Positions 1 to 62,394 of a DNA stretch of 64,000 bases are shown piece by piece. The number at the start of each line of letters is the position of its first letter. Position 1 is the stretch's first letter. The notes below the pieces were generated by a model. It did no database searches. It was not told the origin of the DNA and worked only from the letters and a program-made list of their open reading frames with translations. The position numbers and the translations under genes were made by a program. Location: assembly GCA_910575255.1 (NCBI GenBank), contig CAJTEM010000011.1:1-64000 (forward strand), given 5' to 3'. The stretch comes from Lachnospiraceae bacterium. Lineage in GTDB: Bacteria > Bacillota > Clostridia > Lachnospirales > Lachnospiraceae.

Positions 1-165
1 AAAGCAGTGTCAAAAATACAGAACTCGCTTCGCTCAGACAGCTGTATTTTTGACACTGACGCAGATTCCTGCGAGCTAAGAGTTTCTAGGCATCCTGCAA
101 ACGCAATCCGGGGAACCCTTTTTCCAGAGCTGACACCTGCCAGCATCGAAAGAATAAACCTGTGA
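1..165. repeat. Right half of a giant palindromic element cut by the window start
   Basis: A 17-bp perfect hairpin (5-21 with 42-58) encloses the 20-nt loop AACTCGCTTCGCTCAGACAG at 22-41. Downstream sequence (GCAGATTCCTGCGAGCTAAG, then CATCCTGCAAACGCAATCC, then TTTCCAGAGC) closely matches the right half of the palindrome at 61702-61965, so this is the same element type whose left half lies outside the window. It ends near 165 in an arm ending CCTGTGAAA that resembles arms at 15733-15778 and, inverted, at 34287. Its function is unknown. It is non-coding in appearance. Confidence 0.75.
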
Positions 166-372
166 AACAATATCAGTTTATTTAAGAAAGGGATGTTCAG
201 CCTTGGAACCAGGGGAGGGCCGCAGCGGGAAATGGTCTGCGGATGTTGACTTTGCAGAAATTTTAGGAATTCTTGATCTCGAAACCGGAAACATCCGCAG
301 ACCATTTCCCGCTGCGGCCCTCCCCTGGTTTCAAGGCGTACCTTCCGGAACCTCACCCCACCCCGTGAAAAA
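166..372. repeat. Giant palindromic element, 46-bp stem
   Basis: The core is a 46-bp inverted repeat, 202-247 against 290-335, with one G-T mismatch. The 42-nt centre contains GACTTTGCAG and GGAATTCTTGATCTCG. The junction GGCGTACCTT follows the right stem arm. The left flank (CAATATCAGTTTATTTAAG) resembles the arm seen at 62051, and the right flank (CCTCACCCCACCCCGTGAAA) resembles the other arm type. The stem is nearly identical to that at 34357-34545. An 84-codon open frame across it is a by-product of the palindrome. It could serve as a terminator or an RNA structure; there is no transposase. Confidence 0.85.
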
Positions 373-415
373 CAGACAGGATTTGGATTTATTGGGAAAA
401 GAGATAAATTGGGGC

Positions 416-444
416 TTGTATTTGCCCCGGTCTTTCGGTAGAAT
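416..444 (+). promoter_or_regulatory. Probable sigma-A promoter for the comEA-like operon
   Basis: TTGTAT (416-421) and TAGAAT (439-444) are separated by 17 bp and lie 46 bp ahead of the first gene. It sits just beyond the palindromic elements, so the gene has its own promoter after them. Confidence 0.55.
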
Positions 445-490
445 AGTGGTAGGCTGAATTGGGATTTCTCTCAGGAACAGGAGAGGAATC

Positions 491-1210
491 ATGAGGAAAA
501 TTCAATATGGAAGAGTTGTAATCGGGATTATATTCATTCTGGCTGCGGGATGTTTTTACAGCTGCAGCAGGGGTGTGCAGGGAGAGTTTCTGTCCGGGCC
601 GCAGGCAGAAGATGGGACAGAAGTACTGTTTTCCGGGCCGGAGGGAGGTTTAGAACCAGGGGAGGATACTGCTTTGCAGATTAAAAAGGATCCAGAGTCG
701 GAACCGGATGTCTCCCCTTCGACAGCAGCGGCTTTGACAGAGACAGAGGCTCCCTGCTTTGTTCATGTCTGCGGCGAGGTGGAGAGCCCGGGAGTCTATG
801 AGATGAAGGCAGGGCAGCGGGTTTTTGAGGCAATTGCCATGGCCGGAGGATTTACAGAAAAGGCTGCACAGAGTTATCTGAATCTGGCTGAGCCGGTATG
901 GGATGGCATGAAGCTGGAGGTGCCGGATCAGGAACAGGCTCCGGCGACGGAATGGACGGCGTCTGCCGGACAGGCAGGGAGTCCGGTGCCAGGCGGCAGA
1001 GCTGCGGGAGCGGCCCCGGAAAAGGTGAATCTGAATACCGCAACAAAAGAGGAATTGATGACGCTTCGGGGGATCGGAGAGGCAAAGGCAGAGGACATTA
1101 TCCGTTACCGGGAGAAAAGCGGCGGATTTACAAGAATTGAGGATATCATGCAGATCTCAGGAATCAAGAATGCGGCATTTGAGAAAATCAAGGACGACAT
1201 CACCGTATGA
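491..1210 (+). CDS. ComEA-like SLBB / helix-hairpin-helix lipoprotein
   Basis: A 239-aa exported DNA-binding-type protein. Residues 1-21 form a signal sequence ending in a lipobox (LAAGC), so it is probably lipid-anchored outside the membrane. After a low-complexity acidic linker comes an SLBB domain (about residues 90-145, VHVCGEVESPGVYEMKAG) and a C-terminal tandem helix-hairpin-helix (about 178-239, VNLNTATKEELMTLRGIGEA). This is the ComEA architecture, in which the protein binds incoming DNA at the cell surface during transformation. No other competence genes are adjacent, so a role in DNA uptake is inferred from the family. The start has an AGGAG site 7 bp upstream. Confidence 0.85.
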   Translation: MRKIQYGRVVIGIIFILAAGCFYSCSRGVQGEFLSGPQAEDGTEVLFSGPEGGLEPGEDTALQIKKDPESEPDVSPSTAAALTETEAPCFVHVCGEVESPGVYEMKAGQRVFEAIAMAGGFTEKAAQSYLNLAEPVWDGMKLEVPDQEQAPATEWTASAGQAGSPVPGGRAAGAAPEKVNLNTATKEELMTLRGIGEAKAEDIIRYREKSGGFTRIEDIMQISGIKNAAFEKIKDDITV

Positions 1211-1236
1211 CAGCATGGGAGAAGGAAGGAAAGAGG

Positions 1237-1935
1237 ATGGCAAGGATTCTGGTTGTGGACGATGAGAAGTTGATTGTAAAAGGAATTCGCTTCAGTCTGG
1301 AGCAGGACGGTATGGAGGTGGACTGTGCCTATGACGGGGAAGAGGCGATCGCGCTGGCAAAGCAAAAGGAATATGATGTCGTTTTGCTGGATGTTATGCT
1401 GCCGAAGTTTGACGGTTTTGAGGTGTGCCAGACGATCCGGGAATTTTCAGAGATGCCGATCATCATGCTGACGGCAAAAGGCGGCGATATGGATAAGATT
1501 CTGGGGCTGGAGTACGGCGCTGACGATTATATCACAAAGCCGTTCAATATCCTGGAAGTAAAGGCCAGGATCAAGGCAATCATGCGTCGGAATGCCCGCA
1601 AATCAGGCAAGGGAGGACACCAGGAGAACCGAATGATCACAGCCGGAGATCTGAAGCTGGATCGGGAGGGAAGAAGGGTATTTATCGGGGAGAAGGAGAT
1701 TAACCTGACTGCCAAGGAATTCGACCTGCTGGAGCTTTTTGTGTGCAACCCCAACAAGGTATACAGTCGGGAAGCGCTGCTTTCTCTGGTATGGGGCAAC
1801 AAAGCCACGGAATCGGGGGATGTGAGAACTGTTGACGTGCATGTACGGCGCCTGCGGGAGAAGATTGAGCCAAGTCCCAGTGATCCGCGGTACGTGCATA
1901 CGAAGTGGGGGGTTGGTTATTACTTCCGGATCTGA
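1237..1935 (+). CDS. OmpR/PhoB-family response regulator (orphan)
   Basis: A 232-aa two-component response regulator. The receiver domain (residues 1-120) has the acidic pair DDE, the phospho-acceptor Asp in VVLLDVMLPKFDGFEV, the Thr of IIMLTAK and the Lys of DDYITKPF. The C-terminal half is a winged-helix DNA-binding domain (NLTAKEFDLLELFV ... VDVHVRRLREKI ... WGVGYYFRI). An upstream in-frame ATG at 1207 exists, but 1237 follows GGAAAGAGG and fits family length. No histidine kinase gene is next to it: the following gene is an acetyltransferase, so its sensor must be elsewhere. Confidence 0.92.
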   Translation: MARILVVDDEKLIVKGIRFSLEQDGMEVDCAYDGEEAIALAKQKEYDVVLLDVMLPKFDGFEVCQTIREFSEMPIIMLTAKGGDMDKILGLEYGADDYITKPFNILEVKARIKAIMRRNARKSGKGGHQENRMITAGDLKLDREGRRVFIGEKEINLTAKEFDLLELFVCNPNKVYSREALLSLVWGNKATESGDVRTVDVHVRRLREKIEPSPSDPRYVHTKWGVGYYFRI

Positions 1936-1995
1936 AAATATTTACAATAATAGCCCTGCTGCAGACAGCGGGGTATAAAAAAGGAGTAGAATGGC

Positions 1996-2499
1996 ATGGA
2001 TATTATCATCAGGCAGGTAATGCCGGAGGATCTGGATGCCGTGGCCCGGGTGGAGGCAGTCTGTTTCCCAGAAGCAGAGGCCGCGTCCCGGGCTTCTTTT
2101 GCACAGCGGATTGAGGCATTCCCGGAGAGCTTTCTGGTGGCTGAACAGGAGGGAAGGATCGTCGGTTTTATCAATGGCTGTGTGACAGATGAGCGGGTCA
2201 TCTGCGATGAAATGTTTGAGGATGCCGGGTATCACAGACCGGACGGAGCTTATCAGAGTATTTTTGGTCTGGATGTGGTGCCGGAGCTTCGGAATCAGGG
2301 ACTGGCGGCCCGGCTGATGCGGCAGCTGATTGCAGAGGCAAAGGAAAAGGAAAGAAAGGGGCTGATCCTGACCTGCAAGGATCGTCTGATCAAGTACTAT
2401 GAACGCTTCGGTTACCGGAATCTGGGGATTTCCCGGTCCGTACATGGGGGAGCCGTATGGTATGATATGATTCTGGAGTTTGAACCGGAACAGGAATAA
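1996..2499 (+). CDS. GNAT-family N-acetyltransferase
   Basis: A 167-aa GCN5-related acetyltransferase that would transfer an acetyl group from acetyl-CoA to an amine. Motif A is visible as VVPELRNQGLAARLMRQL (about residues 95-112), with the Q/RxxGxA pyrophosphate loop, followed by the C-terminal YYERFGYRNLG strand-helix. The substrate cannot be read from the sequence. It lies about 60 bp after the response regulator and just ahead of the acyltransferase, probably in one operon. RBS AAAAAGGAG. Confidence 0.85.
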   Translation: MDIIIRQVMPEDLDAVARVEAVCFPEAEAASRASFAQRIEAFPESFLVAEQEGRIVGFINGCVTDERVICDEMFEDAGYHRPDGAYQSIFGLDVVPELRNQGLAARLMRQLIAEAKEKERKGLILTCKDRLIKYYERFGYRNLGISRSVHGGAVWYDMILEFEPEQE

Positions 2500-2575
2500 G
2501 AAATGCAGACAGGGAGCAGTCTATGGACAGCAGAAGATGCTGGCTGTCAGGATGTGCGGGAAAGAAAGGAACGGT

Positions 2576-4045
2576 ATGAAAAAGAGAGCATTGGAAGGGC
2601 AGTGGCGGAGGCTGGATAATACGGCAAATATTTTTCCGGTGATTGCCAACGAGAATATGAGCCAGGTATTCCGGATATCTGTGACACTGAAGGAGCCGGT
2701 GCAGCCGGAGGTGCTGCAGAAGGCCTTGGAGGATATTTTGCCGCATATCCGGAATTTCCGGGTACGGCTGAGACAGGGACTTTTCTGGTATTATTTCGAG
2801 GAGAACAAATCCATTCCGCAGGTGCAGAGGGAGAGCACCTATCCCTGCCGCTATATTGATCCTCATGGGAACCGGAGGTTTTTGTTTCGGGTGACGTATT
2901 ATGAGAGGAGGATTAATCTGGAGGTGTTTCATGCTTTGACGGATGGCCTGGGTGCCGTCAATATGCTGAAGGATCTGACCAGACGTTATCTGCAGCGGAT
3001 TCACGGAGAGGAGAGCGAATTCTGGAGCAGTGAGGATGAGAAGACCCAGAAGGAACAGGAATTCTCAGTGGTGGACAGTTATCTGGAGAACTACCGGGAG
3101 GTGCCGCGCCGCCGGTACAGCTCTCATCCGGCTTATCGTCTGGAGGGCAATTATCTGCCGCTGGGAACCGGACAGGTGCTTCACGGCTATGTGAGCACCG
3201 GGGAACTGAAAAGCGCCTGCCACCGGTTTGACGTCAGCATTACCAAGTATCTGGCGGCAGTGCTGATCTGGTCCATCTGGCAGGAATATCTGGACGGAAA
3301 GCCATGGGCAGAGCCGATCGTGCTGAATCTGCCGATCAATCTGCGGGCATTTTTTGATTCCGAAACCATGGCGAATTTTTTTGCCGTGACAATGATCGGA
3401 TATCTGTTTCGGAACCCGGAGGTAAGCTTTGAGACGCTTCTGGGGAAGATCTCGCGGCAGATGGATCGCAAGATTGATAAGAAGCGTCTGGAAGAAAGCA
3501 TTTCCTACAATGTGTCACGGGAAAAGAAGTGGTATCTGCGCGTGATTCCTCTGGCGTTGAAGCGACTGGCTCTGAATCTGGTGTTCCGGCTGAAGGACCG
3601 GGCCTATACCATGACCTTGTCTAACGTCGGAGTGATCCGGATGGAACCGGAATATGAAAAAGATATCGAGCGTTTTCACCTGATGATCGGTGTGTCCCGG
3701 AGACAGCCGTTAAAGTGCACGGTCTGCGCCTGGAAAGAGGAGGTTGTGATTACTTTTACCTCGGTATTTTCGGACAGCCACCTGCAGAGAAGATTTTTTG
3801 ATAAGCTGAAGGAGGACGGAGTCCGGGTACAGCTGGAGGGAAATGAACCCTCTTCAGCCAGAAAGCGGGATATGTATCCGCGTATCCGCAAGGTTCTGAT
3901 CTTGCAGAAGGGCGGAGAGGCAAAAGCATCCCGGATGGTGAAAAAGGTAGGAAAGACCGGTGGTGAGGCGGCAAGGGGTCTGAAAGGATATCTGGCCGGG
4001 GAAAAGGACTGGAAGGAGGAGCTTCACAGACGGCTGCATGTGTGA
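2576..4045 (+). CDS. Condensation-domain-like acyltransferase
   Basis: A 489-aa soluble protein resembling the alcohol/phenolic-glycolipid acyltransferase branch of the chloramphenicol-acetyltransferase/condensation fold. The diagnostic HxxxDG catalytic motif is present (VFHALTDGLGAVNML, about residue 117), as is a later NLPINLRAFF segment typical of the fold. An in-frame start at 2480 would overlap the upstream gene, so ATG 2576 behind AAAGGAAC is preferred. It is followed 18 bp on by an HSL-type esterase, suggesting paired acylation and deacylation of one small molecule or lipid. The acyl donor and acceptor are unknown. Confidence 0.65.
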   Translation: MKKRALEGQWRRLDNTANIFPVIANENMSQVFRISVTLKEPVQPEVLQKALEDILPHIRNFRVRLRQGLFWYYFEENKSIPQVQRESTYPCRYIDPHGNRRFLFRVTYYERRINLEVFHALTDGLGAVNMLKDLTRRYLQRIHGEESEFWSSEDEKTQKEQEFSVVDSYLENYREVPRRRYSSHPAYRLEGNYLPLGTGQVLHGYVSTGELKSACHRFDVSITKYLAAVLIWSIWQEYLDGKPWAEPIVLNLPINLRAFFDSETMANFFAVTMIGYLFRNPEVSFETLLGKISRQMDRKIDKKRLEESISYNVSREKKWYLRVIPLALKRLALNLVFRLKDRAYTMTLSNVGVIRMEPEYEKDIERFHLMIGVSRRQPLKCTVCAWKEEVVITFTSVFSDSHLQRRFFDKLKEDGVRVQLEGNEPSSARKRDMYPRIRKVLILQKGGEAKASRMVKKVGKTGGEAARGLKGYLAGEKDWKEELHRRLHV

Positions 4046-4063
4046 TGCTTGACAGGAGGCGTT

Positions 4064-5047
4064 ATGAGAACGGATAAGGTTAGTCTGCGGGGCAGGCTGG
4101 TACGGGATATGATTCGAAATACCATGGATTCTGCCATGGGGCACCGGATTCAGACTGGAGAGCTGCGCAAGAATCCGGTAGAACCGGCATGGGTGCGTCC
4201 GCAGGGCTATGATTATGAGCTGGTGGAGCTGGAGAATTTTTCCATGGAGTATTTAAGGCCGGTGCAGGTAAGCACCGGCCGGGTGGTGCTGCAGCTTCAC
4301 GGAGGCGGATATATCGGCCCGATGAAGAATATTTACCGGGATTTTGCGGTTTGCTATTCGAAGCAGAGTATGGGAGGGGATGTGCTGACGATCGATTACC
4401 GGGTAGCGCCCGAGTATCCGTATCCGGCAGCGCTCGAAGACGCCCTGGAGGCATACCGGTGGCTTTTGGAGGAAAAAAAGTACGCTCCGCAGAAGATTGT
4501 GGTCGCAGGCGATTCAGCCGGCGGAGGCCTGGCGCTGGCTTTGGCTCTGTATCTGCGGGATCATGGTATGGCGATGCCGGCCGGATTGGCATTGATGTCT
4601 CCGTGGACGGATCTGACCTGCAGCGGAGAGAGCCATAAGACAAACTTTCATCGGGATCCCCAGTTTGGCAATACCACGGATAATCTGCTGCATGACAGTG
4701 CCTATATCGGAGATGCGGATCCGAGGGATCCCTACCTTTCGCCGGTATTCGGGGAATTCTGGGGAATGCCGCCGGTGCTGATGCAGGTCGGCAGTGAGGA
4801 GGTGCTGCTGAGCGATACTCTGAGGGTGGCGGATAAGCTGCGCATGACAAAAGGAAAGCTGCGCGTATCGGTGTATGACGGCATGTTCCATGTGTTCCAG
4901 ATGGCGATGCGCCTGATTCCGGAGAGCAGGGAGGCCTGGGAGGAGGTGGGTGCCTTTCTGCAGATTCTCTATGGAATCCGCCGGAAGCCGGAGGGGAAGA
5001 TTGTGAAGCGGGTGAAGTCAGGACGCAGGCAGGGGGCCGGGCAATGA
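4064..5047 (+). CDS. Alpha/beta hydrolase, hormone-sensitive-lipase family
   Basis: A 327-aa serine esterase. It shows the HSL oxyanion motif [11 protein letters not shown] (about residue 82), the nucleophile elbow GDSAGGG (about 150), an acidic residue in the [14 protein letters not shown] stretch and the catalytic His in [13 protein letters not shown] 4064 follows AGGAGGC at proper distance; an upstream TTG at 4049 is unlikely. There is no signal peptide, so it is cytoplasmic. It overlaps rlmH by four bases (ATGA), implying translational coupling, and follows the acyltransferase closely. Confidence 0.85.
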
Positions 5048-5523
5048 AGATTACCCTGGTTACGGTAGGAAAAATCAAGGAACGTTTTTTTGCGGATGCG
5101 ATAAAAGAGTATGAAAAGAGGCTGAGCCGTTATTGCCGGCTGGAGATTGTGCAGGTGTCGGATGAGAAGACACCGGAGAAAGCCAGCGAGGCAAAGGCCC
5201 GGCAGATCAGGGAGCGGGAGGGCGAGAGGATCCTGGCGCAGCTGAAGGAGGGGGCGTATGTGATTGCGCTGGCGATTGAGGGAAAGATGGCCAGCTCGGA
5301 GGAGCTGGCAAAGAAGCTGGAAAAGCTGGGGATCACCGGAAAAAGCCAGGTGGTATTTGTAATTGGCGGCTCACTGGGGCTGTCGGAGGCGGTTCTGAAA
5401 CGGGCGGATGAGCAGCTGAGCTTTTCCCGTATGACATTTCCCCATCAGCTGATGAGGGTGATTCTTCTGGAGCAGATCTACCGGAGTTATCGGATTATTG
5501 CCGGAGAACCGTATCACAAGTAA
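5044..5523 (+). CDS. rlmH: RlmH, 23S rRNA pseudouridine-1915 N3-methyltransferase
   Basis: A 159-aa SPOUT-class methyltransferase of the usual family length. It begins [20 protein letters not shown]. The C-terminal knot carries the SAM-binding [14 protein letters not shown] and the end [20 protein letters not shown] followed by [11 protein letters not shown], all hallmark RlmH sequences. It modifies helix 69 of the ribosome. It overlaps the hydrolase gene by four bases. A palindromic repeat starts six bases after its stop and may act as its terminator. Confidence 0.97.
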
Positions 5524-5528
5524 GGGAG

Positions 5529-5683
5529 GTTACTTTTAACAGGCAATTTCAGTAAGTTGAGAGATCTCGGAACACAGCCAGGGAAACGGGGAGAGCAGAC
5601 CCTTTCCGATGGCTGCTCTCCCCGTTTCCCTGGCGTACCTTCTGGAACAGCTTAACTTACTGACATCGGGTGTGAACAGTAAC
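5529..5683. repeat. Palindromic element with GTTACT terminal inverted repeats
   Basis: The outer arms are imperfect inverted repeats: 5529-5562 (GTTACTTTTAACAGGCAATT...) against about 5650-5683 (...GTGAACAGTAAC). Inside, a perfect 22-bp stem pairs 5577-5598 with 5613-5634, followed by GGCGTACCTTCTGGAACAG. The same arms and GGCGTACC junction recur at 62051-62394 and in reverse orientation at 12456-12628. It starts directly after rlmH, where the strong stem could terminate transcription, although no U-run follows. MITE-like in shape, but no transposase is linked. Confidence 0.85.
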
Positions 5684-5722
5684 TTTTTATAAAATTGTAA
5701 TAAATAGAACCAGAGGAAACAG

Positions 5723-5751
5723 TTGAATTTACCATCAGACTGTTTTATACT
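5723..5751 (+). promoter_or_regulatory. Probable sigma-A promoter
   Basis: TTGAAT (5723-5728), a 17-bp spacer, then TATACT (5746-5751). It lies 82 bp before the cell-wall-binding protein and beyond the palindromic element. Confidence 0.55.
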
Positions 5752-5833
5752 GGAAGAAGCCGGCCAGAGTGTGCTTTGGAGTGGATTCTGGCAGAGTATG
5801 CGAGGCAGATATTGATTAGCAGGAGGAAAAAAG

Positions 5834-6805
5834 ATGAAGTGGAAGCAGATCGGAAAGCGTCTGGCAGTTGTTTCCGCGGCAGTGGTTCTGTCGGCGGCAG
5901 CAACTGTGACAGTGTGGGCAAAGACGAAATTGGACACTGTGTCAGAGGTCTATTGGAATGAGGATGAGGACAATGACAGTAAGATGACAGAGGCAGTCTG
6001 GGAGTCGGTCGAGGATGCCAATCAGTATGAGGTTGCTTTGTACCGGGACGGAAGCAAGGTGACAGAGGTCACGGTAAAGGCCAGCAAGAACAGCTATAAT
6101 TTTAAGCGTAAGATGGATAAGGAAGGGGATTATACCTTCCGTGTGCGTGCACTGGCAAAGAAGAGCAGCAGTGAATATGCGAATGGCTCCTGGTCGGATT
6201 ATTCGGACGGACTTTATATTACTGAGGCCCGTGCGGAGTATAATAAAGGCGGAGCGCAGGAAGATACCAGCAAGACAGGGCCAGGGGCGCCGGCCGGCGG
6301 CAGTGAGGGTTCTGCGAGCTTAAATAGCGGAGTCGTTGCAGAGAATAGCCAGAAGCCGACAGCAAGCAATACTACGGAGGAGAAGGTAGTTGCAGAGAAC
6401 AGCAGGAAGCCGGTTGCCGAGGGAAGCAGCAGTGCTTCGGCGGACAACGGACAGCCGGCACAGGAAGACAATGCTGAGCCAAAGACCGGGGAATGGGTCA
6501 ATGACAGCACCGGCTGGTGGTATCGCTGGTCCGACGGCACTTATCCGGCAGGGAACTGGTTCCAGGATCCGGCGGACGGGAAATATTATATGATGGACGG
6601 CCAGGGGTATATGAGAACCGGCTGGATCACCTGGAATGAGAAGCGTTATTATTGCGATGCCTCAGCGACTCCGTCCGGTGCCATGGTGACCGGAGAGCAT
6701 TATATTGACGGTATGCTGTACCGCTTTGACGATTCCGGTGCGATGATTGACGAAGCGATTACCTCCGGAGGATCCTCACGGTCGGAGGATGATGACGAGA
6801 ATTAA
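5834..6805 (+). CDS. Secreted protein with choline-binding-type (GW) cell-wall repeats
   Basis: A 323-aa exported protein. Residues 1-31 form a Sec signal peptide with an AxA-like cleavage region (TVTVWAK). Residues about 40-130 look like a fibronectin-III-type beta domain (VSEVYWNEDEDNDSKMTEAV ... YTFRVRALAKKSS). A Ser/Ala/Glu-rich linker with two related VVAENSxKP segments follows. The C-terminus carries three or so cell-wall-binding repeats (TGWWYRWSDGTYPAGNWF, YYMMDGQGYMRTGWI, YYCDASATPSGAMVTGEHYI) that anchor proteins to wall polymers. There is no catalytic domain, so a structural or adhesive role is inferred. The RBS is AGGAGG. Confidence 0.8.
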   Translation: MKWKQIGKRLAVVSAAVVLSAAATVTVWAKTKLDTVSEVYWNEDEDNDSKMTEAVWESVEDANQYEVALYRDGSKVTEVTVKASKNSYNFKRKMDKEGDYTFRVRALAKKSSSEYANGSWSDYSDGLYITEARAEYNKGGAQEDTSKTGPGAPAGGSEGSASLNSGVVAENSQKPTASNTTEEKVVAENSRKPVAEGSSSASADNGQPAQEDNAEPKTGEWVNDSTGWWYRWSDGTYPAGNWFQDPADGKYYMMDGQGYMRTGWITWNEKRYYCDASATPSGAMVTGEHYIDGMLYRFDDSGAMIDEAITSGGSSRSEDDDEN

Positions 6806-12455: not shown

Positions 12456-12628
12456 TTGTTATAATAATACGTAACAGTTCAGAGGCAATGTCGTTTGGTT
12501 GAGTCTTTTCAGAAGGTACGCCATGGAAAAAGGAGCGGGTAGAGACTGGAAATGGTCTGCTGCTTTTTCCATGGCTGGGCATCTTTTCGCCTAAACGAAA
12601 AGACATGGTACTGAATTGTTATAATAAT
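12456..12628. repeat. Palindromic element flanked by 13-bp direct repeats
   Basis: TTGTTATAATAAT occurs at both ends (12456-12468 and 12616-12628). Between them, outer arms pair imperfectly (CAGTTCAGAGGCAATGTC... with ...GACATGGTACTGAATTG). The core GCCATGGAAAAAG(G)AGC pairs with GCT(G)CTTTTTCCATGGC. The junction reads AGGTACGCC on the left, so the element is inverted relative to the copy at 5529. The direct repeat could be a target-site duplication. It also contains TATAAT, so each copy may provide a -10 box; the right copy lies ahead of the Asp23 gene. Confidence 0.75.
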
Positions 12629-12684: not shown

Positions 12685-13077
12685 GTGGCAGTGGAGAACA
12701 GGGATGAGAGAAGCACTCACAAGGTATATGAAAAGGAAAGGATTGGTGAGGTACAGATAGCGGATGAGGTGGTGGCGATCATTGCCGGTCTGGCGGCCAC
12801 CGAGGTGAGTGGCGTGGATTCCATGGCAGGCAATATCACTAATGAGCTGGTAGGCAAGCTTGGGATGAAGAATTTGTCTAAGGGAGTCAAGGTGGATGTG
12901 ACGGAGGAGCATGTATCTGTGGATTTATCTTTGAACATGAAGTACGGCTACAATATTCCGGAGGTCAGTGAGAAAGTGCAGGAGAAGGTGAAGTCAGCGA
13001 TCGAGAACATGACCGGACTGACCGTACTGGATGTGAACATCAAGATTGCCGGAGTGAATCTGGCAGAAGAAAAATAA
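12685..13077 (+). CDS. Asp23/Gls24-family protein
   Basis: A 130-aa protein of the alkaline-shock/Gls24 family (about residues 17-125: GEVQIADEVVAIIAGLAATE ... VTEEHVSVDLSLNMKYGYNI ... GLTVLDVNIKIAGVNL). Family members in Firmicutes are small cytoplasmic or membrane-peripheral proteins linked to cell-envelope stress. The start is GTG 12685 or GTG 12691, both behind AGGAGG at 12675-12680. It often sits between spoIIIAH and nusB in clostridia; here nusB does not follow. A strong terminator ends it. Confidence 0.9.
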   Translation: MAVENRDERSTHKVYEKERIGEVQIADEVVAIIAGLAATEVSGVDSMAGNITNELVGKLGMKNLSKGVKVDVTEEHVSVDLSLNMKYGYNIPEVSEKVQEKVKSAIENMTGLTVLDVNIKIAGVNLAEEK

Positions 13078-13080
13078 GTA

Positions 13081-13121
13081 ACTGCCCCGCTGCCGGATTC
13101 TTCCGCCGGCAGCGGGGCAGT
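13081..13121. terminator. Bidirectional terminator hairpin
   Basis: A perfect 16-bp GC-rich stem, 13081-13096 with 13106-13121, and a 9-nt loop. It separates the Asp23 gene (+) from the converging YdcZ-like gene (-), so it probably serves both. Confidence 0.8.
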
Positions 13122-13157
13122 TATGGATTTCGGAATTAGAGAACCGGATAGCGGTTA

Positions 13158-15732: not shown

Positions 15733-15778
15733 GAGCTGATAGCTGCCGGCCTTGAAAAATGTACCTCGTGAAAAGTAA
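15733..15778. repeat. Solo arm of a palindromic element
   Basis: GAGCTGATAGCTGCCGGCC...CTCGTGAAAAGTAAC matches, with substitutions, the arm at about 128-165 and, in reverse complement, the left arm at 34287-34330. No partner arm is present, so this is a degraded or half copy. A small hairpin (GGCGGCA...TTGCCGTC, near 15700-15722) sits just upstream and may terminate cfa. Confidence 0.5.
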
Positions 15779-15830
15779 CATAAACGGAAAGCTTGCAGGA
15801 AAAATTGCAGGGGAAAATTCGTGATTATGC

Positions 15831-24676: not shown

Positions 24677-25730
24677 AGATCATCACACCCTTTTGCCCAG
24701 GACTGAATCATATTAATCGGAACTTCCAGAAACCTTGCTATTTTATCCAAAGATTCTCCATCCTTTAGCATGTTAACCGCTGTTTTCTTTGCTTGTCTGA
24801 TCCGGCCTTCCTCGCGGCCTTCCTCGCGGCCTTCCTTGCGGCCTTCCTTGCGGCCTTCCTTGCGGCCTTCCTGCATTTTTTCATAACCAAACTGTTCCAC
24901 TGCTTTTTCCTGATCAAATAATGCCATCATGATGCTCACAACCTCCTTCTCATGGCTTAAGAGATACTCTTTTAACACGTCTCTGTCCTTACAAATACGG
25001 ATTGTCTCCTGAACAGCTTCCTTAGTCCTGCCATAGAGTCCTGACTGCTCCTGGTATATTTTGGTGAAATTTACATATTGGCTGATGATGTCATTTTTCC
25101 CATCCCCATAGAGCATCTTTACTCTGATGTCCAGGAAGCCTTTTTCCCCGCCAAAGAATTCATCCGTCAGGCTTAAGTATTCCGGTTTCTCCTGACGGTT
25201 TCCGGAAAATATAACATACATCTCCGGCCTTGGCAGGCTCAGTTTTCTGCTTCCATAACGGTTCTGATTAGTTGTCTCAATGTAATCATTCCAAGTCTGT
25301 GCCAGGTACAAAAACGCCCGTACAACGATGTTGACGCTCAAGTGCCTTGACCGCATTATATCTGGCGAAACTCTGCAGGATATTTGTTCATCTGCAAGGC
25401 GGATTTTCGACGGCGTAGCGGTGGCTACGGCTAGAAAATCCAACGCAGCAGGTGGGCAAATAGACAAGGAGTTTCGCCAGATATAATGCGGTCAAGACAC
25501 TAGGTTGACTGCGCTTCCGCAAGGATCACGATGCGGTCCTTGTTGCGGAAACCCAGGTCATTATAAAGGTCATTCGTCAGGACGTTCTGTATCGTCACAT
25601 CTACAAGGTCATCCTCTGTTGTTTCCATGTCCTCCGGGTGCAGGGTCTGGTAAAGTTTAAGAAGATACTTTTTGTCCCTGAACAGATCCGAGAACACGCT
25701 GTCTCTGATCGTGAGTTTCGCTTCTTTCAT
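24673..25730 (-). pseudogene. Rpn-family recombination-promoting nuclease, interrupted by a palindrome
   Basis: The PD-(D/E)XK nuclease/transposase-type (Rpn/PDDEXK_2) gene is split by the insertion at 25341-25501. The N-terminal piece (25730-25502) encodes SVFSDLFRDKKYLLKLYQTL and the catalytic-type NDLYNDLGF...ILAEAQST, then meets a stop in the insert. The C-terminal piece resumes at LSVNIVVRAFLYLAQTW and ends in GRKEGRKEGREEGR repeats and an HTH-like tail. Removing the 161 bp joins ...AEAQST to LSVNIVV in frame, giving about 298 aa, a normal Rpn length. The insertion is therefore recent, and the gene is inactive unless precise excision occurs. Confidence 0.85.
25341..25501. mobile_element. 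161-bp palindromic MITE-like insertion
   Basis: The ends AGTGCCTTGACCGCATTATA and its near-complement at 25469-25501 form a 33-bp inverted repeat with one mismatch (TCTGGCGAAACTC continues the arm). The inner halves also pair: GGATTTTCGACGGCGTAGC against GCTACGGCTAGAAAATCC. The whole insert is thus one imperfect palindrome without coding capacity. No clear target duplication is visible; at most the flanking CT on the minus strand. It interrupts the Rpn gene, and precise removal restores the reading frame. The sequence is unlike the other palindromes of this window. Confidence 0.85.
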
Positions 25731-25842: not shown

Positions 25843-25902
25843 TTCCCTGGCGTACCTCTCAAGAAATGCTTAACTTCCTGACATTGGCAGTAAATGGTGA
25901 CA
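25843..25902. repeat. Solo right half of a palindromic element
   Basis: CCCTGGCGTACCTC...GCTTAACTTCCTGACATTGGCAG...GTGAC matches the right arm of the copy at 5629-5683, with substitutions, but no left arm precedes it. It is a remnant in the gap between the Rpn locus and the cysteine desulfidase-type gene. Confidence 0.7.
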
Positions 25903-34286: not shown

Positions 34287-34571
34287 TTTCACAGGGGGTG
34301 TTCTTTCGAGGCCGGCAGATACCAGCCTCGGAAGAATGGGGAACGGGATGTTCAGCCTTGGAATCAGGGGAGGGCCGCAGCGGGAAATGGTCTGCGGATG
34401 TTGACTTTGCAGAGATTTAGAAGTCCTTAAATTTCTGAATTTTCGTTTCGCTTTTCGCAAAACTCGGAAATTTTAGGAATTCTTGATCTCGAAACCGGAA
34501 ACATCCGCAGACCATTTCCCGCTGCGGCCCTCCCCTGATTCCAAGGCGTACCTTTTGGATCCCCACCCCCA
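34287..34571. repeat. Giant palindromic element with perfect 46-bp stem
   Basis: The core stem pairs 34357-34402 with 34500-34545 without a mismatch. It is flanked by an outer arm beginning TTTCACAGGGGG and a right end GGCGTACCTTTTGGATCCCC. The inside carries GACTTTGCAGAGATTTAGAAG and TAGGAATTCTTGATCTCG, which pair with each other as an inner stem. Compared with 202-335, the stem has a C-G to T-A swap on both arms (GGAACCAGG/CCTGGTTTC versus GGAATCAGG/CCTGATTCC). From 34572 to 34884 I see no gene. Confidence 0.88.
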
Positions 34572-52190: not shown

Positions 52191-52250
52191 AAAAGACATG
52201 ATCCTGCGCGGATCCCCTGTCCAGGGGAGATGCGCAGGATCATGTCTTTT
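52191..52250. terminator. Bidirectional terminator with perfect 19-bp stem
   Basis: 52191-52209 pairs without mismatch with 52232-52250, with an inner CCCCT/AGGGG pair. It has A residues on the left and T residues on the right, so it can end both spoVAE (+) and the penicillin-binding protein gene (-), whose stop is at 52256. Confidence 0.92.
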
Positions 52251-55803: not shown

Positions 55804-55823
55804 AATACATTGTAGATTACCAG

Positions 55824-55858
55824 GAGCTAAGGACCGACATCGTGTTCTTAGCTCTTTT
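55824..55858 (+). promoter_or_regulatory. Leader hairpin ahead of typA
   Basis: GAGCTAAG (55824-55831) pairs with CTTAGCTC (55847-55854), followed by TTTT and then the GGAGGAG ribosome site. It looks like a short terminator or attenuator in the 5' leader. The regulator is unknown. Confidence 0.5.
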
Positions 55859-55869
55859 GGAGGAGAAAG

Positions 55870-57696
55870 ATGAAAAGAGAAGATGTCAGAAATGTGGCAA
55901 TCATTGCCCATGTAGATCACGGGAAGACCACACTGGTGGATGAGCTGTTAAAAAGCAGCGGCGTATTCCGAGCCAACCAGGAGGTTGTGGAGCGGGTTAT
56001 GGACTCCAATGATATTGAGCGGGAGAGAGGGATCACGATTCTTTCCAAAAATACCGCTGTATTTTACAAGGATACCAAGATTAATATTATCGACACGCCC
56101 GGACACGCGGATTTTGGCGGAGAGGTGGAGCGGGTCCTCAAGATGGTAAACGGCGTCATCCTGGTGGTGGATGCTTATGAGGGTCCGATGCCTCAGACAA
56201 AGTTTGTGTTAAAAAAGGCCCTCGAGCTTAACCTGCCGGCGATCGTCTGTATCAATAAGATTGACCGTCCGGAGGCAAGGCCAAAGGAGGTTATTGATGA
56301 GGTGCTGGAGTTGTTTATGGATCTGGATGCCTCGGACGAGCAGCTGGATTGTCCGTTTTTGTTTGCCTCGGCGCGGGCCGGCTTTGCCAAGAAGCAGCTG
56401 GAGGATCCGGAAGAGGATATGAGGCCGCTGTTTGAGACGATTGTGGATTATATCCCGGCTCCGGAAGGGAATCCGGAAGCGGATACGCAGATGCTGATCA
56501 GTACGATTGATTATAATGAGTATGTGGGCAGAATCGGAATCGGTAAGATTGACAATGGTACGGTACGTGTCAATCAGGAATGTGTGATCGTCAATCATCA
56601 TGACCCGGACAAGCTGCGCAAGGTGAAGATCGGCAAGCTGTATCAGTTCGACGGACTGAACCGGGCAGAGGTGGCTGAGGCGACGGTAGGTGACATCGTG
56701 GCAGTGTCCGGCATTACGGATCTGCACATCGGAGACACGATCTGTTCCCCGGAGAATCCGGATGCCATTCCCTTCCAGAAGATTTCCGAGCCGACGATTG
56801 CCATGAATTTTATGGTGAATGACAGTCCTTTAGCGGGCCAGGAGGGAAAATACGTCACCTCTCGTCATATCCGGGAAAGACTGTTCCGTGAGCTGAACAC
56901 GGATGTAAGCCTGAGAGTGGAGGAAACCGATTCTCCGGATTGTTTCAAGGTGTCAGGAAGAGGAGAGCTGCATCTGTCGGTGCTGATTGAGAATATGCGT
57001 CGGGAGGGGTATGAGTTTGCAGTCAGCAAGGCGGAAGTACTCTATAAATATAACGAACGGAACCAGAGACTGGAGCCGATGGAGCTGGCCTATATCGATG
57101 TCCCGGAGGAGTTTACCGGCAGCGTAATTCAGAAGCTTACTTCCCGTAAGGGAGAGCTGCAGGGAATGAGTCCGGTGAGCGGCGGATATACCCGTCTGGA
57201 ATTTTCCATCCCCTCCCGTGGACTGATCGGCTATCGTGGTGAGTTTTTGACAGATACCAAAGGCAACGGGATTATGAATACGATTTTCGATGATTATGCA
57301 CCCTATAAGGGAGACATGAATTACCGTAAGACAGGCTCTTTGATCGCTTATGAGAGCGGGGAGACTATCACTTATGGGCTTTTCAATGCTCAGGAGCGCG
57401 GGATTTTGTTCGTGGGACCGGGAGAGAAGGTATATGGCGGTATGGTGATCGGCCAGAATCCGAAGGCAGAGGACATTGAGGTGAATGTGTGCAAGACGAA
57501 GAAGCTGACCAACACCCGTTCGTCGAGCGCGGACGAGGCCCTTAAGCTGGTGCCGAAAAAGGAGATGAGCCTGGAGCAATGCCTGGAATTTATTGATACG
57601 GACGAGCTTCTGGAGGTAACGCCAGCGAGCCTGCGGATCCGTAAGAAGATCCTGGATCCTACTCTGCGCAAACGGGCATCTTTTAAGAAACAGTGA
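55870..57696 (+). CDS. typA: TypA/BipA ribosome-associated GTPase
   Basis: 608 aa translational GTPase of full family length. G1 [15 protein letters not shown], switch region [13 protein letters not shown]3 [13 protein letters not shown]4 NKIDRPEA, G5 SARAGF. EF-G-like domains follow, and the BipA-specific C-terminal part has [19 protein letters not shown] and [20 protein letters not shown]. It binds ribosomes and aids assembly and translation under stress or cold. Confidence 0.97.
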
Positions 57697-57852
57697 CAAA
57701 AATCCAAAATGTGTCATGATTTGGCGAATGAAAATCTTCATATCTACGTTTTCTTTTTCATAGACATATTTAAGAGGGCAGACTGTCTGTATGCCGCGAG
57801 AAAGTAAAAGCAAAGAATATGAATATGAAAAAAGGAAGAGGAGAGAAGTACC

Positions 57853-58488
57853 ATGGCAGAAAAAGTGATTGAAAATAACAAGGTAAGTGTAATCGGAGAA
57901 ATCATTTCCGGATTCACCTTCAGTCATGAGGTGTTCGGAGAGGGATTTTATGTGGTGGAAGTGGCAGTCAACCGTTTGAGTGAGCAGGCGGATATTATTC
58001 CTCTGATGATTTCCGAACGGCTGATCCGCGTGCAGGAGGATTACCGGGGCTGTACGGTGGAGGCTATCGGGCAGTTTCGTTCTTATAACCGGCATGAAGG
58101 TGTCAAGAACCGTCTGGTGTTGTCCGTATTTGTGCGGGAAATCAACTTTATGGAAGAGTTTACGGACTATACCAAGACGAACCAGATCTTTCTGGACGGT
58201 TATATCTGTAAAGCACCCATATATCGGAAGACTCCTCTGGGCCGGGAGATCGCGGATCTGTTGCTGGCAGTGAACCGGCCGTACGGAAAATCGGATTATA
58301 TTCCCTGTATTGCCTGGGGACGCAATGCCCGTTTTGCTTCCGGTTTTGAAGTGGGGACCCGGGTGCGGGTCTGGGGCAGGGTGCAGAGCCGGGAGTATAC
58401 CAAGAAGCTTTCGGAGACAGAATGTGAGAAAAGAGTGGCCTATGAGGTGTCCATCAGCAAGCTTGAGTGTGGGGACGGGCAGCAGTAG
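57853..58488 (+). CDS. Two-OB-fold single-stranded-DNA-binding protein
   Basis: 211 aa, two tandem OB-like domains (about 1-105 and 108-205). The second is the more SSB-like: NQIFLDGYICKAPIYRKTPL, DLLLAVNRPYGKSDYIPCIA, WGRNARFASGFEVGTRVRVW. It lacks the acidic C-terminal tip of the replication SSB, so it is probably an accessory SSB. Common in Lachnospiraceae. RBS AGAGGAGAGAAG. Confidence 0.8.
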   Translation: MAEKVIENNKVSVIGEIISGFTFSHEVFGEGFYVVEVAVNRLSEQADIIPLMISERLIRVQEDYRGCTVEAIGQFRSYNRHEGVKNRLVLSVFVREINFMEEFTDYTKTNQIFLDGYICKAPIYRKTPLGREIADLLLAVNRPYGKSDYIPCIAWGRNARFASGFEVGTRVRVWGRVQSREYTKKLSETECEKRVAYEVSISKLECGDGQQ

Positions 58489-58569
58489 GTAAAAGACATA
58501 TTCACAGGCAGGAGACCGGCAGCCGGTGACGGGAGCGGCGGCTGTAAGGAAATACCGAGGAGCAAAAGG

Positions 58570-59058
58570 ATGAATACAGGTAAATTAGAAGTGATATACG
58601 GGGAAGGTTCCGGAAAAACGGCGATGGCACTGGGAAAAGGGCTGGAGGCGCTGTCAGAGCAGCAGCGGGTAACAGTCATTCAGTTTTTGAAGGGCAGCCA
58701 GACATCGGAGATGATGAAGCGGCTGGAACCGGAGATGAAGGTGTTTCGTTTTGAAAAGTCCGGCTGTAATTTTGAGGAGCTCTCTGATCTTGCCAGGCAA
58801 GAGGAATCCGCCAATATCCGCAATGGCGTGAACTATGCCCGAAAGGTGCTGGCTACGGGAGAGTGCGGGCTTCTGATCTTAGATGAGGTGCTGGGAGTCG
58901 TGGATCAGGATATTTTGATGGAGTCAGAGCTGGAACAGCTTTTGGAGAGCCGGGGGGATGTGGATGTGATTCTTACCGGACGTGTGCTGCCGGAAAGGCT
59001 GGCAGCGATGGCTGATCGGATTGAACGGATCACCAGGATCGAGCCGGTTCATGATTAA
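58570..59058 (+). CDS. CobO/BtuR-like P-loop protein with atypical P-loop
   Basis: 162 aa. It resembles the corrinoid adenosyltransferase CobA/CobO: N-terminal GKLEVIYGEGSGKTAMALGK, VTVIQFLKGS, LLILDEVLGVVDQDI and DVILTGRVLPERLAAMADRI. Canonical members read GNGKGKTTAA, while here the loop is GEGSGKTAMA, losing the extra Lys and a Thr. It is also shorter than usual. Adenosylation of cobalamin is therefore possible but not certain. About 80 bp after the SSB gene. Confidence 0.7.
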   Translation: MNTGKLEVIYGEGSGKTAMALGKGLEALSEQQRVTVIQFLKGSQTSEMMKRLEPEMKVFRFEKSGCNFEELSDLARQEESANIRNGVNYARKVLATGECGLLILDEVLGVVDQDILMESELEQLLESRGDVDVILTGRVLPERLAAMADRIERITRIEPVHD

Positions 59059-59076
59059 GGCGCGCATAAATTTTGG

Positions 59077-59105
59077 TTGACAAGAGCCGGGGCGGATGGT
59101 AGTAT
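59077..59105 (+). promoter_or_regulatory. Promoter of the lysine-riboswitch transcript
   Basis: Consensus TTGACA (59077-59082), a 17-bp spacer and TAGTAT (59100-59105), about 50 bp before the aptamer. Confidence 0.75.
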
Positions 59106-59156
59106 GTGCTTAGGCTGGATGCAGCGGATGTATGCGGCTAAAAGATTCATAAAAGG

Positions 59157-59330
59157 AAAGTAGAGGTTGCGTGAAGCATGAGTAGGCTGCCGGATGTTCC
59201 AGAGACAGGGGAAGGCAGAGGAAAGGGCGGACGCCGAAGACGGGTGCAGGCTGGCTGCATTTGTCTGGGCACAGGGTGAAGAATTCTGTGACTGTCATCC
59301 GGGACCGGGTGGAGCGCTTGAGGTCGGATG
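59157..59330 (+). ncRNA. Lysine riboswitch (L box)
   Basis: Conserved segments occur in the L-box order: GTAGAGGTTGCG (59160 on), GAGTAGGCT, AGGGGAAGGC, AAAGGGCGGACGCCGAAG, the pairing TGCAG...CTGCA, then GACTGTCAT and GGTGGAGCGCTT. The helix carried by GTGAAGAATTCTGTGACTGTC also fits. With a terminator at 59374 and dapA after it, lysine binding is expected to stop transcription of the lysine/diaminopimelate genes. Helix P1 looks weak by eye. Confidence 0.9.
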
Positions 59331-59373
59331 GAGAGCTGCTGAAAGAAGATTATAAGGGTATTATAATTTTTTG

Positions 59374-59412
59374 GGGGAGCCTTCCGACAGGCTCCTCTTT
59401 TGGTTTTTTCAT
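59374..59412 (+). terminator. Riboswitch-controlled terminator
   Basis: GGAGCCT (59376-59382) pairs with AGGCTCC (59389-59395), followed by TCTTTTGGTTTTTT. It is the expression platform of the lysine riboswitch, 60 bp before dapA. Confidence 0.88.
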
Positions 59413-59472
59413 GGGGTGATTTGTTCTGTGAGGCTTACGGGAAATTACATTATCAGTTAGGAGGACATTATT

Positions 59473-60357
59473 ATGGCGATTTTTGAAGGAGCCGGTGTGG
59501 CGTTAATTACCCCGTTTCATGCGAACGGAGAAGTAAATTATGAGAAATTGGAAGAGCTTTTGGAGGAGCAGGTTTCGGGCGGGACGGATGCCGTCATTTC
59601 CTGCGGTACGACCGGGGAATCCTCGACCATGAGTCATGAAGAGCATATGGAGGTGGTGAAATTCACCTGTCAGGTAGTGAAGAACCGGATTCCGGTGATT
59701 GCGGGGACCGGCTCGAATTCCACAAGAGAGGCGATTCATCTGTCGGAGGCAGCACAAGAGGCAGGAGCCGACGGGCTTTTGCTGGTTACGCCTTATTACA
59801 ACAAGGCGACACAGGGCGGGCTGACTGCACATTATAAGGCAGTGGCACAGTCCGTGAAGATCCCGATTTTGCTTTACCATATTCCGGGACGGACCGGGGT
59901 GACGATGAAGCCGGAGACGATCGTAAACCTGTGCAGGGAGGTGCCGAATATTGTGGGAGTCAAGGAGGCAAGCGCTGACTTTTCTGCGATAGCACAGATT
60001 ATGAATCTGGCTGACGGAAAGGTGGATTTGTATTCCGGCAATGACGACCAGATTGTCCCGCTCCTGTCCTTAGGAGGCAAGGGCGTGATTTCCGTGCTGT
60101 CCAACGTAGCCCCTAGGCAGACGCATGACATCTGTGAGACATACCTGAAAGGGGACTGTAAAAAGAGCCGTGAGCTGCAGCTGAAGGCGATTCCTCTGAT
60201 CCATGCACTGTTCTGCGAGGTGAATCCGATTCCGGTCAAGGCAGCGATGAATCTGATGGGCAAAGAGGTCGGCCCGCTGCGCCTGCCTCTGACAGAGATG
60301 GAGCCGCAGAATCAAAAACGCCTGATGCAGGCAATGCAGGAGTACGGAATTCTGTGA
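59473..60357 (+). CDS. dapA: 4-hydroxy-tetrahydrodipicolinate synthase
   Basis: 294 aa, TIM barrel. It condenses pyruvate and aspartate semialdehyde. Seen: GAGVALITPFHANGEVNYEK, the GTTGESSTMSHEEH signature, YYNKATQGGLTAHYKAVAQS, catalytic Tyr in LLYHIPGRTGV and Schiff-base Lys in NIVGVKEASAD. It begins the branch to lysine, cell-wall diaminopimelate and, in spores, dipicolinic acid, which links it to spoVAD. Controlled by the upstream riboswitch. Confidence 0.97.
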   Translation: MAIFEGAGVALITPFHANGEVNYEKLEELLEEQVSGGTDAVISCGTTGESSTMSHEEHMEVVKFTCQVVKNRIPVIAGTGSNSTREAIHLSEAAQEAGADGLLLVTPYYNKATQGGLTAHYKAVAQSVKIPILLYHIPGRTGVTMKPETIVNLCREVPNIVGVKEASADFSAIAQIMNLADGKVDLYSGNDDQIVPLLSLGGKGVISVLSNVAPRQTHDICETYLKGDCKKSRELQLKAIPLIHALFCEVNPIPVKAAMNLMGKEVGPLRLPLTEMEPQNQKRLMQAMQEYGIL

Positions 60358-60373
60358 GAAAGGGGCGGATACG

Positions 60374-61150
60374 ATGACCAGAATTATCATGCACGGATGC
60401 AATGGAGCCATGGGACGGGTAATCTCCGGACTGGCAGAGGACATGGAGGATGTCAGGATCGTGGCCGGGATTGATCCGGATGACAGGCAGAGCTTCGGGT
60501 ATCCGGTCTTTCAGAGTCTGGAGCAGTGCGATGTGGAAGCAGATGTGATTGTGGACTTTGCTTCGGTGAAGGCAGTGGATCATTTGCTGGATTATTGTGC
60601 CGCAAAAGGAATGCCTCTGGTGCTGTGCACGACGGGGCTTTCCGAGGAGCAGGCGGCAAAGGTACAAAGGACGGCCGGGAAGACGGCGGTTCTTCGTTCC
60701 GCTAATATGTCGCTGGGGATCAACACCCTTTTAAAGCTTTTGCAGGATGCAGCCAGGGTGCTGGCCGCGGCCGGTTTTGATGTGGAGATTGTGGAAAAGC
60801 ATCATAACCGCAAAGTGGACGCGCCCAGCGGGACGGCTTTGGCTTTGGCGGACTCGGTTAACGAGGCACTGAATCATGAGTATCACTACGAATACGACCG
60901 GTCGGTGAAGAGAACCAGACGGGATGCGAAGGAAATCGGGATCCAGGCTGTACGCGGCGGCACAATTGTCGGTGAGCATGAGGTGATTTTTGCCGGGCAG
61001 GACGAGGTGGTAACTTTCAGCCATACGGCCTATTCCAAGGCGATCTTTGGAAAAGGAGCGCTGGAGGCGGCGCTGTTTCTGAAAGGAAAGGGGCCGGGGC
61101 TTTATACGATGGCGGACGTGATAGAGGCTGCGGGTCAAAAGCAGCATTGA
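60374..61150 (+). CDS. dapB: 4-hydroxy-tetrahydrodipicolinate reductase
   Basis: 258 aa. NAD(P) site IIMHGCNGAMGRVISGLAED, DVIVDFASVKAVDHLLDYC, VLCTTGLSEEQAAKVQ, catalytic region EIVEKHHNRKVDAPSGTALA and AVRGGTIVGEHEVIFAGQDE. It performs the second step after dapA, 16 bp downstream in the same riboswitch-controlled operon. Confidence 0.97.
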   Translation: MTRIIMHGCNGAMGRVISGLAEDMEDVRIVAGIDPDDRQSFGYPVFQSLEQCDVEADVIVDFASVKAVDHLLDYCAAKGMPLVLCTTGLSEEQAAKVQRTAGKTAVLRSANMSLGINTLLKLLQDAARVLAAAGFDVEIVEKHHNRKVDAPSGTALALADSVNEALNHEYHYEYDRSVKRTRRDAKEIGIQAVRGGTIVGEHEVIFAGQDEVVTFSHTAYSKAIFGKGALEAALFLKGKGPGLYTMADVIEAAGQKQH

Positions 61151-61167
61151 TTTTCCTGATTTTTCCG

Positions 61168-61208
61168 GGTATGGAAGAAGGTTATTCTCTTCCATACCTG
61201 TTTTTTTC
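61168..61208 (+). terminator. Terminator of the dapAB operon
   Basis: GGTATGGAAGA (61168-61178) pairs perfectly with TCTTCCATACC (61188-61198) and is followed by TGTTTTTTT. Confidence 0.92.
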
Positions 61209-61269
61209 ATAAAATAAGCTTCTTTGAAACATAATAAATCAGGACAACAACAGAAAGGAGAATAAAATT

Positions 61270-61632
61270 ATGAAAAAAATGAAGATGTCAGCGCTGCTTA
61301 TGCTGACACTGCTGTCTCTTTTCTGCCTGACGGCATGCGGCAGCAATAAGAATAATGCCGGAACCGGCACGAGTGCGGCGCAGTCCAGTCAGGCCATGAC
61401 AGGAGCGAATACGGAAAGCTCGGGGAATTCTTCGGGAGTCACCTCCGGGAATACTACGGGCAGCACTGCCGGAAGCACCTCTGGCGCTGCCGGAACCAGC
61501 GCAGCCGGCAGCTCAGATAAGGAGGAGAGCAGTCCCGGGGTGATTGAGGGGCTGATGGATGATGTCGAGGACGGTGTCGAGGATCTGACCGGAAATGACA
61601 GTTCCAGGGCTTCGGATGAGAGCAGGCAGTAA
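61270..61632 (+). CDS. Small Ser/Thr/Gly-rich lipoprotein
   Basis: 120 aa. A lipoprotein signal with lipobox (SLFCLTACGS) is followed by about 60 residues of Ser, Thr, Gly and Ala, then an acidic end (VIEGLMDDVEDGVEDLTGND). No domain is recognised. Probably anchored outside the membrane with a disordered tail. RBS AGAAAGGAG. Confidence 0.75.
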   Translation: MKKMKMSALLMLTLLSLFCLTACGSNKNNAGTGTSAAQSSQAMTGANTESSGNSSGVTSGNTTGSTAGSTSGAAGTSAAGSSDKEESSPGVIEGLMDDVEDGVEDLTGNDSSRASDESRQ

Positions 61633-61701
61633 CCGATGTGTGGAAAGTCCCTGTCGTGTGGCGGGGGCTTTTTCCTTTTTGGGGATGGAACCGGGAGGTA
61701 C

Positions 61702-61965
61702 GCCCTGGAGGAAGGGAGGGAGCCGAAAGATGCGCTCTGGAAAACGGGTTCCCTGGACCTCAGGTTTCGGATGGAGAAACTCTAAGCTTGCAGGAATCTG
61801 CTAAAAGCAGGAGCAAAAATGCAGAACTCGCTGCGCTCAGACAGCTGCATTTTTGCTCCTGACGCAGATTCCTGCGAGCTAAGAGTTTCTGTCCATCCTG
61901 CAAACGCAATCCAGGGAATCCGTTTTCCAGAGCGCATTTTTCGACTCCCTCCCTTCCTCCAGGGC
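61702..61965. repeat. 264-bp giant palindrome with conserved tip loop
   Basis: Nearly the whole 264 bp folds on itself. Outer GCCCTGGAGGAAGGGAGGGA pairs with the sequence ending at 61965; TGCGCTCTGGAAAACGG pairs with CCGTTTTCCAGAGCGCA; AAACTCTAAGCTTGCAGGAA with its partner near 61866-61889; and a 17-bp tip stem, 61808-61824 with 61845-61861. The tip loop, AACTCGCTGCGCTCAGACAG, is at 61825-61844. The left junction is AGGTACGCC. It is the full form of the half element at 1-165. Non-coding. Confidence 0.92.
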
Positions 61966-62050
61966 TGAGCACTGCCGATTGCTTCTATCCCCATTTCCCG
62001 CTGCGGCCCTCACCTTGTCTTAAGGTGTACCTTCTGGAATTTCACCCCAC

Positions 62051-62394
62051 GTTACTGTTCACAGGCAATGTCAGTTAGTTAAGAAAATGAGAAACTCAGC
62101 CAGGGAAGAGGGGGAAGTCCCCGCCGGAAAGAGTCTGCGGATTTTGACTTTGCAGAGATTTAGAAGTCCTTGGATTTTTGAGTTTTGCGTTGAAACGAAA
62201 ATTCACACTGTCTGAGCGGAGCGAGTTTGTGAATTTTCGTTTCGTTTTTAGCAAAAATCAGAAATCTTAGGAATTCTTAATCTCGAAACCGGAAAAATCC
62301 GCAGACTCTTTCCGGCGGGGACTTCCCCCTTTTCCCTGGCGTACCTTTTGGAACAGCTTAACTAACCGACATTGGGTGTGAACAGTAACCACCT
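62051..62394. repeat. Palindromic element with GTTACTGTTCACA ends, inserted in a second copy
   Basis: The ends GTTACTGTTCACA and TGTGAACAGTAAC are exact inverted repeats, extended by CAATGTCAGTTAGTTAAG/CTTAACTAACCGACATTG. The interior has paired GC-rich stems, the GACTTTGCAGAGATTTAGAAG inner arm and, at the tip, a stem around CTGTCTGAGCGGAGCGAGTT, the reverse complement of the tip-loop motif at 22-41 and 61825-61844. The flanks (TTTCACCCCAC on the left, CACCTCACCCCGTGAAA on the right) look like a split copy of the CCTCACCCCACCCCGTGAAA arm seen at 352-371. No gene was found from 62395 to 62710. Confidence 0.9.

Follow-up and report, generated by a model that had tools for sequence, protein, structure and literature searches.

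Giant intergenic palindromes of a Lachnospiraceae genome as probable non-autonomous relatives of an IS4-family insertion sequence

What are the giant palindromes that lie between the genes of a Lachnospiraceae bacterium, and what has spread them? The question is raised by the first 64,000 nucleotides of contig CAJTEM010000011.1 (assembly GCA_910575255.1), the whole stretch analysed here and hereafter called the window, for which a preliminary description had listed several modular palindromes without matching them to a named element. We put forward, with a probability of roughly 0.88, that they are non-autonomous elements of an IS4-family insertion sequence (IS), similar to miniature inverted-repeat transposable elements (MITEs), because of their ends, their 8-bp target duplications, their nesting and a ~33-bp end sequence in common with the IS. 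An IS4-type transposase would move them in trans by a cut-and-paste mechanism, and composites would arise when elements nest or when they fuse and lose their inner ends. In kind, the palindromes would thus belong to a named class, that of MITEs, which the preliminary description had itself given as an outcome that would refute it, although a limited literature search found no published description of this particular family.

Build, placement and signs of mobility

Complete elements carry GTTACTKTTCAC at one terminus and GTGAAMAGTAAC at the other. The two kinds of outer arm distinguished previously were recovered, A-type arms going on in the manner of ACCCAATGTCAGTTAGTTAAG and B-type arms with GGGGTGGGGTGAGG, but both have the terminus GTTACTKTTCAC in common. 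The hairpin module has a foot of CAGCC on one side and GGCGTACC on the other, and consists of ~37 variable stem pairs, then the inner arm and then the tip; in elements of ~600 bp a short linker is followed by another hairpin, inverted relative to the first. Junctions, GC-rich stem and inner arm are found again across the genome, in both orientations, which agrees with the earlier view of one modular family exceeding in size repetitive extragenic palindromic (REP) sequences and bacterial interspersed mosaic elements (BIMEs). Terminal inverted repeats are present (GTTACTNTTCAC at 89 places versus 2 in the control), and many copies are without one or both ends.

The inner-arm 21-mer, with at most 3 mismatches, occurs at 131 places in this genome, at 100 in the congener G017 and at 0–2 in each of 22 other congeners. 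The reversed 21-mer gave no match here and, across the 24 genomes, a single one, in G023. Counts from DNA searches of the own genome, which scored 40 of 239–280 initial candidates per query, are lower bounds. The intergenic location proposed before is borne out by 67 of 69 clusters, which fall outside open reading frames (ORFs) of at least 150 aa although such ORFs cover 78% of the 625,586 bases considered (the window and own-genome stretches picked for their hits, with 25 kb of contig-end sequence excluded).

Several features point to mobility. Among 108 end pairs, which are not independent as ends are shared, 8-bp duplications were exact in 5 and had one mismatch in 9, the expectation from flanks dealt between pairs being ~0.7. 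One of these 14 pairs, L033:5311-9252, was rejected as a supposed 3.9-kb autonomous copy, as it crosses an N join from an IS to a half hairpin. At L033:9110 a lone N joins the start of an IS1634-family gene to a half palindrome, which is probably an artefact of scaffolding over a repeat. A later scan, limited to 1,500 bp, found 15 own-genome elements with an 8-bp duplication (at most 1 mismatch), ten of them of 339–1,141 bp; the largest composite with one common duplication measures 1,141 bp (L040:13817-14957, 7/8). L067 has a direct repeat, TGATAAAATGTCACCAACCGGAGCGAAGCG..., at ~180-320, close to an element with which a contig starts.

Nesting is clearest at the end of the window. The palindromes at 61702-61965 and 62051-62394 had been listed together; both are present, but 62051-62389 is a separate element lying within the outer arm of an older one, and when its flanks are rejoined minus one duplication the arm is restored without a gap. 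Nineteen hits span this join, and the four shown are ungapped at 84–88% identity. The empty sites compared in this way are paralogous ones. The joined-flank test was applied to 21 elements: 10 gave no spanning hit, 8 hit their own locus only, and other copies were hit by the window element, by L045 (the hits shown have one gap) and by L070 (one hit).

A probable IS4-family partner in relatives

No transposase lies inside the palindrome copies, which the preliminary description had read as the mark of an unnamed kind of element. That reading finds no support: the palindromes have the ends and 8-bp duplications of a mobile element, and IS4-family ISs of relatives bear the same ends. End pairs in relatives led to a 1,821-bp IS with A-type ends and a single 428-aa gene (G012:C12, L084). 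Its protein is an IS4-family transposase by NCBIfam NF033592 (145.9 bits, cut-off 115) and PF01609 by Pfam; it is encoded in a single ORF, with D105-D183-E314 and the signature Y(2)R(3)E(6)K in the form YHLRWNQETAYRDLK. Aligned homologues retain D105, D183 and E314, and the signature is kept in L084, L154 and L135; the L084 protein had no match among PDB sequences up to E = 1. The hallmarks of the IS4 family given in PMC2266710 are D(60-110)D(100-150)E and Y(2)R(3)E(6)K, with subgroup duplications of 7–13 bp; against the subgroup table there, the partner ends, compared by eye, fit no listed consensus fully.

The ~33-bp ends are nearly the same on the palindromes and on IS4-family ISs of other Lachnospiraceae. 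Besides L084, such an end is borne by the IS homologues L173 (G013:C34; gene in two pieces, both ends, 7/8 duplication), L120 and L141 (fragmented gene, both ends present, ~9-bp flanking repeats by eye, in L120 one base out of register), and L154 and L135 (left end present, no good right end). The right arm in the window and the left end of the L154 IS share 33 of 35 bases. When named genomes were scanned, the extended end turned up in 63 stretches, among them ones labelled Lachnospiraceae, Faecalicatena orotica, Hungatella and Clostridiales. The end pairs in L061 and L085 were discarded as autonomous copies, no transposase being among the ORFs listed there. For B-type ends, too, the search yielded no autonomous IS but only the ends of contigs in G012 and G023. 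In these two genomes several contigs begin or end no more than ~160 bases from one and the same B-type end (L217-L222, L225-L230), as if the assembly had been broken by a multi-copy B-type IS.

Very small relatives also exist. In G013, elements of 28 and 33 bp consist of almost only the two ends and have 8-bp duplications (table 1), and a sixth such end pair, L169, belongs to a 119-bp element. These and the 35-bp elements of other named genomes either moved at that size or shrank in place; if mobile they would be, in our judgement and from a non-exhaustive literature search, among the shortest moved by a DDE-type enzyme (one with an aspartate-aspartate-glutamate triad). Elements of 99–154 bp that have B-like ends and are flanked by exact duplications of 8 bp were also seen in G012 and G013 (L224:744-842, L234:728-879, L235:931-1084).

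Stem arms and competing explanations

To describe the stems we used A-like hairpins, of which 49 were found; 41 of 328–345 bp were aligned (8 were dropped for length), and 40 remained after removal of near-identical ones. Over the 37 variable pairs, a copy's own arms are 98.0% Watson-Crick, 1.2% G-T and 0.8% mismatched, whereas right arms dealt between copies give a mean of 73.9% Watson-Crick (78.9% in the top of 200 deals). Copies differ from one another by 27% in the variable stem, 7.6–7.9% in the inner arm and 5.9–9.1% in the tip. In 34 nearest-neighbour comparisons, in which sequences recur, 32 pair changes were one-armed and 96 two-armed; comparisons with one or two changes account for 11 and 7 of these, and the remainder for 21 and 89. 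Small differences are thus mostly one-armed and larger ones two-armed, which suggests correction of the arms at the DNA level. The arm statistics have the pattern that mutation followed by copying onto the other arm would give. Template switching in replication might, though we infer this less surely, copy one arm onto the other, leaving stems near-perfect yet drifting while inner arm and tip would be kept. In PMC8794818 template switching is proposed to keep stems perfect through replication, for RNA genes.

A real rival, if in our view an unlikely one, is that the hairpins are selected as RNA structure, for example as a processing or stability element, their mobility being incidental. Compensatory types at 52 of 137 pairs and the conservation of the imperfect inner arm and tip are in its favour, but G-T pairing in the variable stem is scant (1.2%), and the passage from one-armed to two-armed changes with distance speaks for the copying of arms. 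Furthermore, the flanking genes show no orientation bias: the 64 clusters with both neighbours visible (25 forward, 21 reverse, 10 divergent, 8 convergent) resemble the background gaps (61, 70, 36 and 32, respectively), and an Rfam scan of the window at the gathering score gave no match on any palindrome.

Rather more doubtful is the idea that the giant hairpins and the 28–35-bp elements move folded, their complementary ends pairing into one double-stranded end that is cut together. The folded form would then be, just as doubtfully, a cruciform or a single strand during replication. If true, this would account for the retention of near-perfect pairing despite free drift of the stem, and an IS4-type transposase could move elements that leave no room for their two ends to be bound separately.

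We regard movement of a REP/BIME-type element on a folded single strand by a REP-associated tyrosine transposase (RAYT; Y1, HUH) as very improbable. The hairpins do have an asymmetric foot, lie between genes in many copies and share the genome with three Y1 matches; however, G017 combines 100 inner-arm matches with zero Y1, and many Y1-bearing congeners are without hairpins, so that the tracking with such an enzyme which the preliminary description had proposed as a check is not seen. Terminal repeats and 8-bp duplications are not expected of the RAYT mechanism either. That the source is the IS1634-family IS adjoining copies in L083 and L033, which scores above the NCBIfam IS1634 cut-off, can practically be dismissed, as its ends (TTTGACAGTTT type) are unrelated to those of the palindromes and its first 86 residues match only two places in this genome.

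The IS4 reading itself has several observations to its disadvantage. Some two-ended copies are without a target duplication, for example that at 5529-5683 in the window, whose flanks differ at 7 of 8 bases, and many own copies are without intact ends. In the set of 40 hairpins, pairing over the terminal 13 positions is no better within copies than between dealt arms (42.0% versus 45.5% Watson-Crick), which we put down to copies with lost or swapped ends. The L084 IS is without a target duplication, its flanks differing at 7 of 8 bases, and of six additional places with a homologue in congeners, G013:C34 alone bears these ends. This genome and G017 are the only two with the giant form in number, and both are without the transposase: a protein search found none of L084 type in either, nor was NF033592 found above its cut-off, this genome giving four sub-cut-off matches, of which one falls on the IS1634-family gene. 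The GTTAC end is present in 1 of the 7 G017 copies shown. The assembly, with 106 contigs and 96.66% completeness, is incomplete, and a multi-copy IS could therefore be missing from it; alternatively, the enzyme may have been lost.

If the IS4 reading is correct, a puzzling family of large palindromes is accounted for as IS4-type hitchhikers. The more than 100 natural hairpin copies of a single genome allow arm-to-arm correction to be traced, which bears on the persistence of long palindromes in bacteria and advises caution, in that paired changes need not imply selected RNA.

Window copies and known systems

The window holds seven large palindromes plus remnants (table 1). Palindromes are present at all the places listed in the preliminary description, and an inverted-repeat search recovered arms at 191-346, 5529-5683, 34337-34565, 61702-61965 and 62051-62389; the boundary 12456-12628 is better given as 12471-12622. 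The flanks of the latter (AATAATAC/AATAATCC) agree at 7 of 8 bases but are A+T-rich and hence weak as a duplication, and at 34287-34571 there is no target duplication. The first copy is partial because the contig starts there. Elsewhere the window has an ordinary lysine riboswitch (59153-59346; Rfam RF00168, 92.1 bits), its one Rfam match at the gathering score, and inverted repeats outside the palindrome family at 25341-25501 (33-bp arms 95 apart), 52191-52250 (29-bp arms 2 apart) and 13072-13130 (spanning the end of the asp23-family gene).

Table 1. Palindrome copies in the window and very small relatives in other genomes
Feature	Position	Strand	Remarks
C-type hairpin, right part (arm, tip, AGCTG foot) and linker	1..165	.	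like L032, L033, L042 hairpins
B-type hairpin module, tip shortened	166..372	+	arms 191-247 and 290-346; GGCGTACC foot at 335; outer end decayed
Short A-type element, both ends present	5529..5683	+	arms from inverted-repeat search
Decayed A-type element	12471..12622	-	between spoIIIAH-like gene and asp23-family gene
Solo right half, end GTGAAAAGTAAC	15733..15779	+	
Decayed A-type right half with GGCGTACC foot	25843..25902	+	
B-type hairpin with inner arm and tip	34287..34571	+	outer ends decayed
Older composite, left portion	61672..62050	+	C-type hairpin (arms 61702-61757, 61910-61965) and B-type remnant
Complete A-type element inserted in older composite	62051..62389	+	duplication CACCCCAC/CACCTCAC, 7/8
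Remainder of older composite's right outer arm	62390..62412	+	split off by 62051-62389
Very small elements, exact duplications (G013)	L091:1012-1039, L092:680-712, L171:692-724		
Very small elements, one-mismatch duplications (G013)	L170:722-754, L172:705-737		
35-bp elements, exact 8-bp duplications (other named genomes)	L136:711-745, L162:1205-1239		

The palindromes share with MITEs and other non-autonomous IS derivatives, of which the IS231-derived cassettes are an example, their short size, high copy number, terminal inverted repeats, duplications and want of a gene; they differ in being, over most of their length, one or two giant hairpins with co-evolving arms, and in forming composites of up to 1,141 bp. 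Set beside the IS4 family as presented in PMC2266710, the partner transposase likewise has the DDE spacing and the YREK signature, and the 8-bp duplications fall within 7–13 bp, whereas the palindromes carry no gene and their ends fit no listed consensus fully. REP/BIME elements with RAYT (PMC8266576, PMC3733652) are likewise intergenic, many-copy palindromes, but ours are much longer, have terminal repeats with duplications and do not track with Y1 genes. The bcr1 and stem-loop families (PMC6542083, PMC2267715) are also dispersed foldable repeats. The template switching of PMC8794818 concerns RNA genes, while here it is proposed for dispersed mobile copies. What is unusual in this MITE-like, probably IS4-family group is its long hairpin interior, which evolves in concert.

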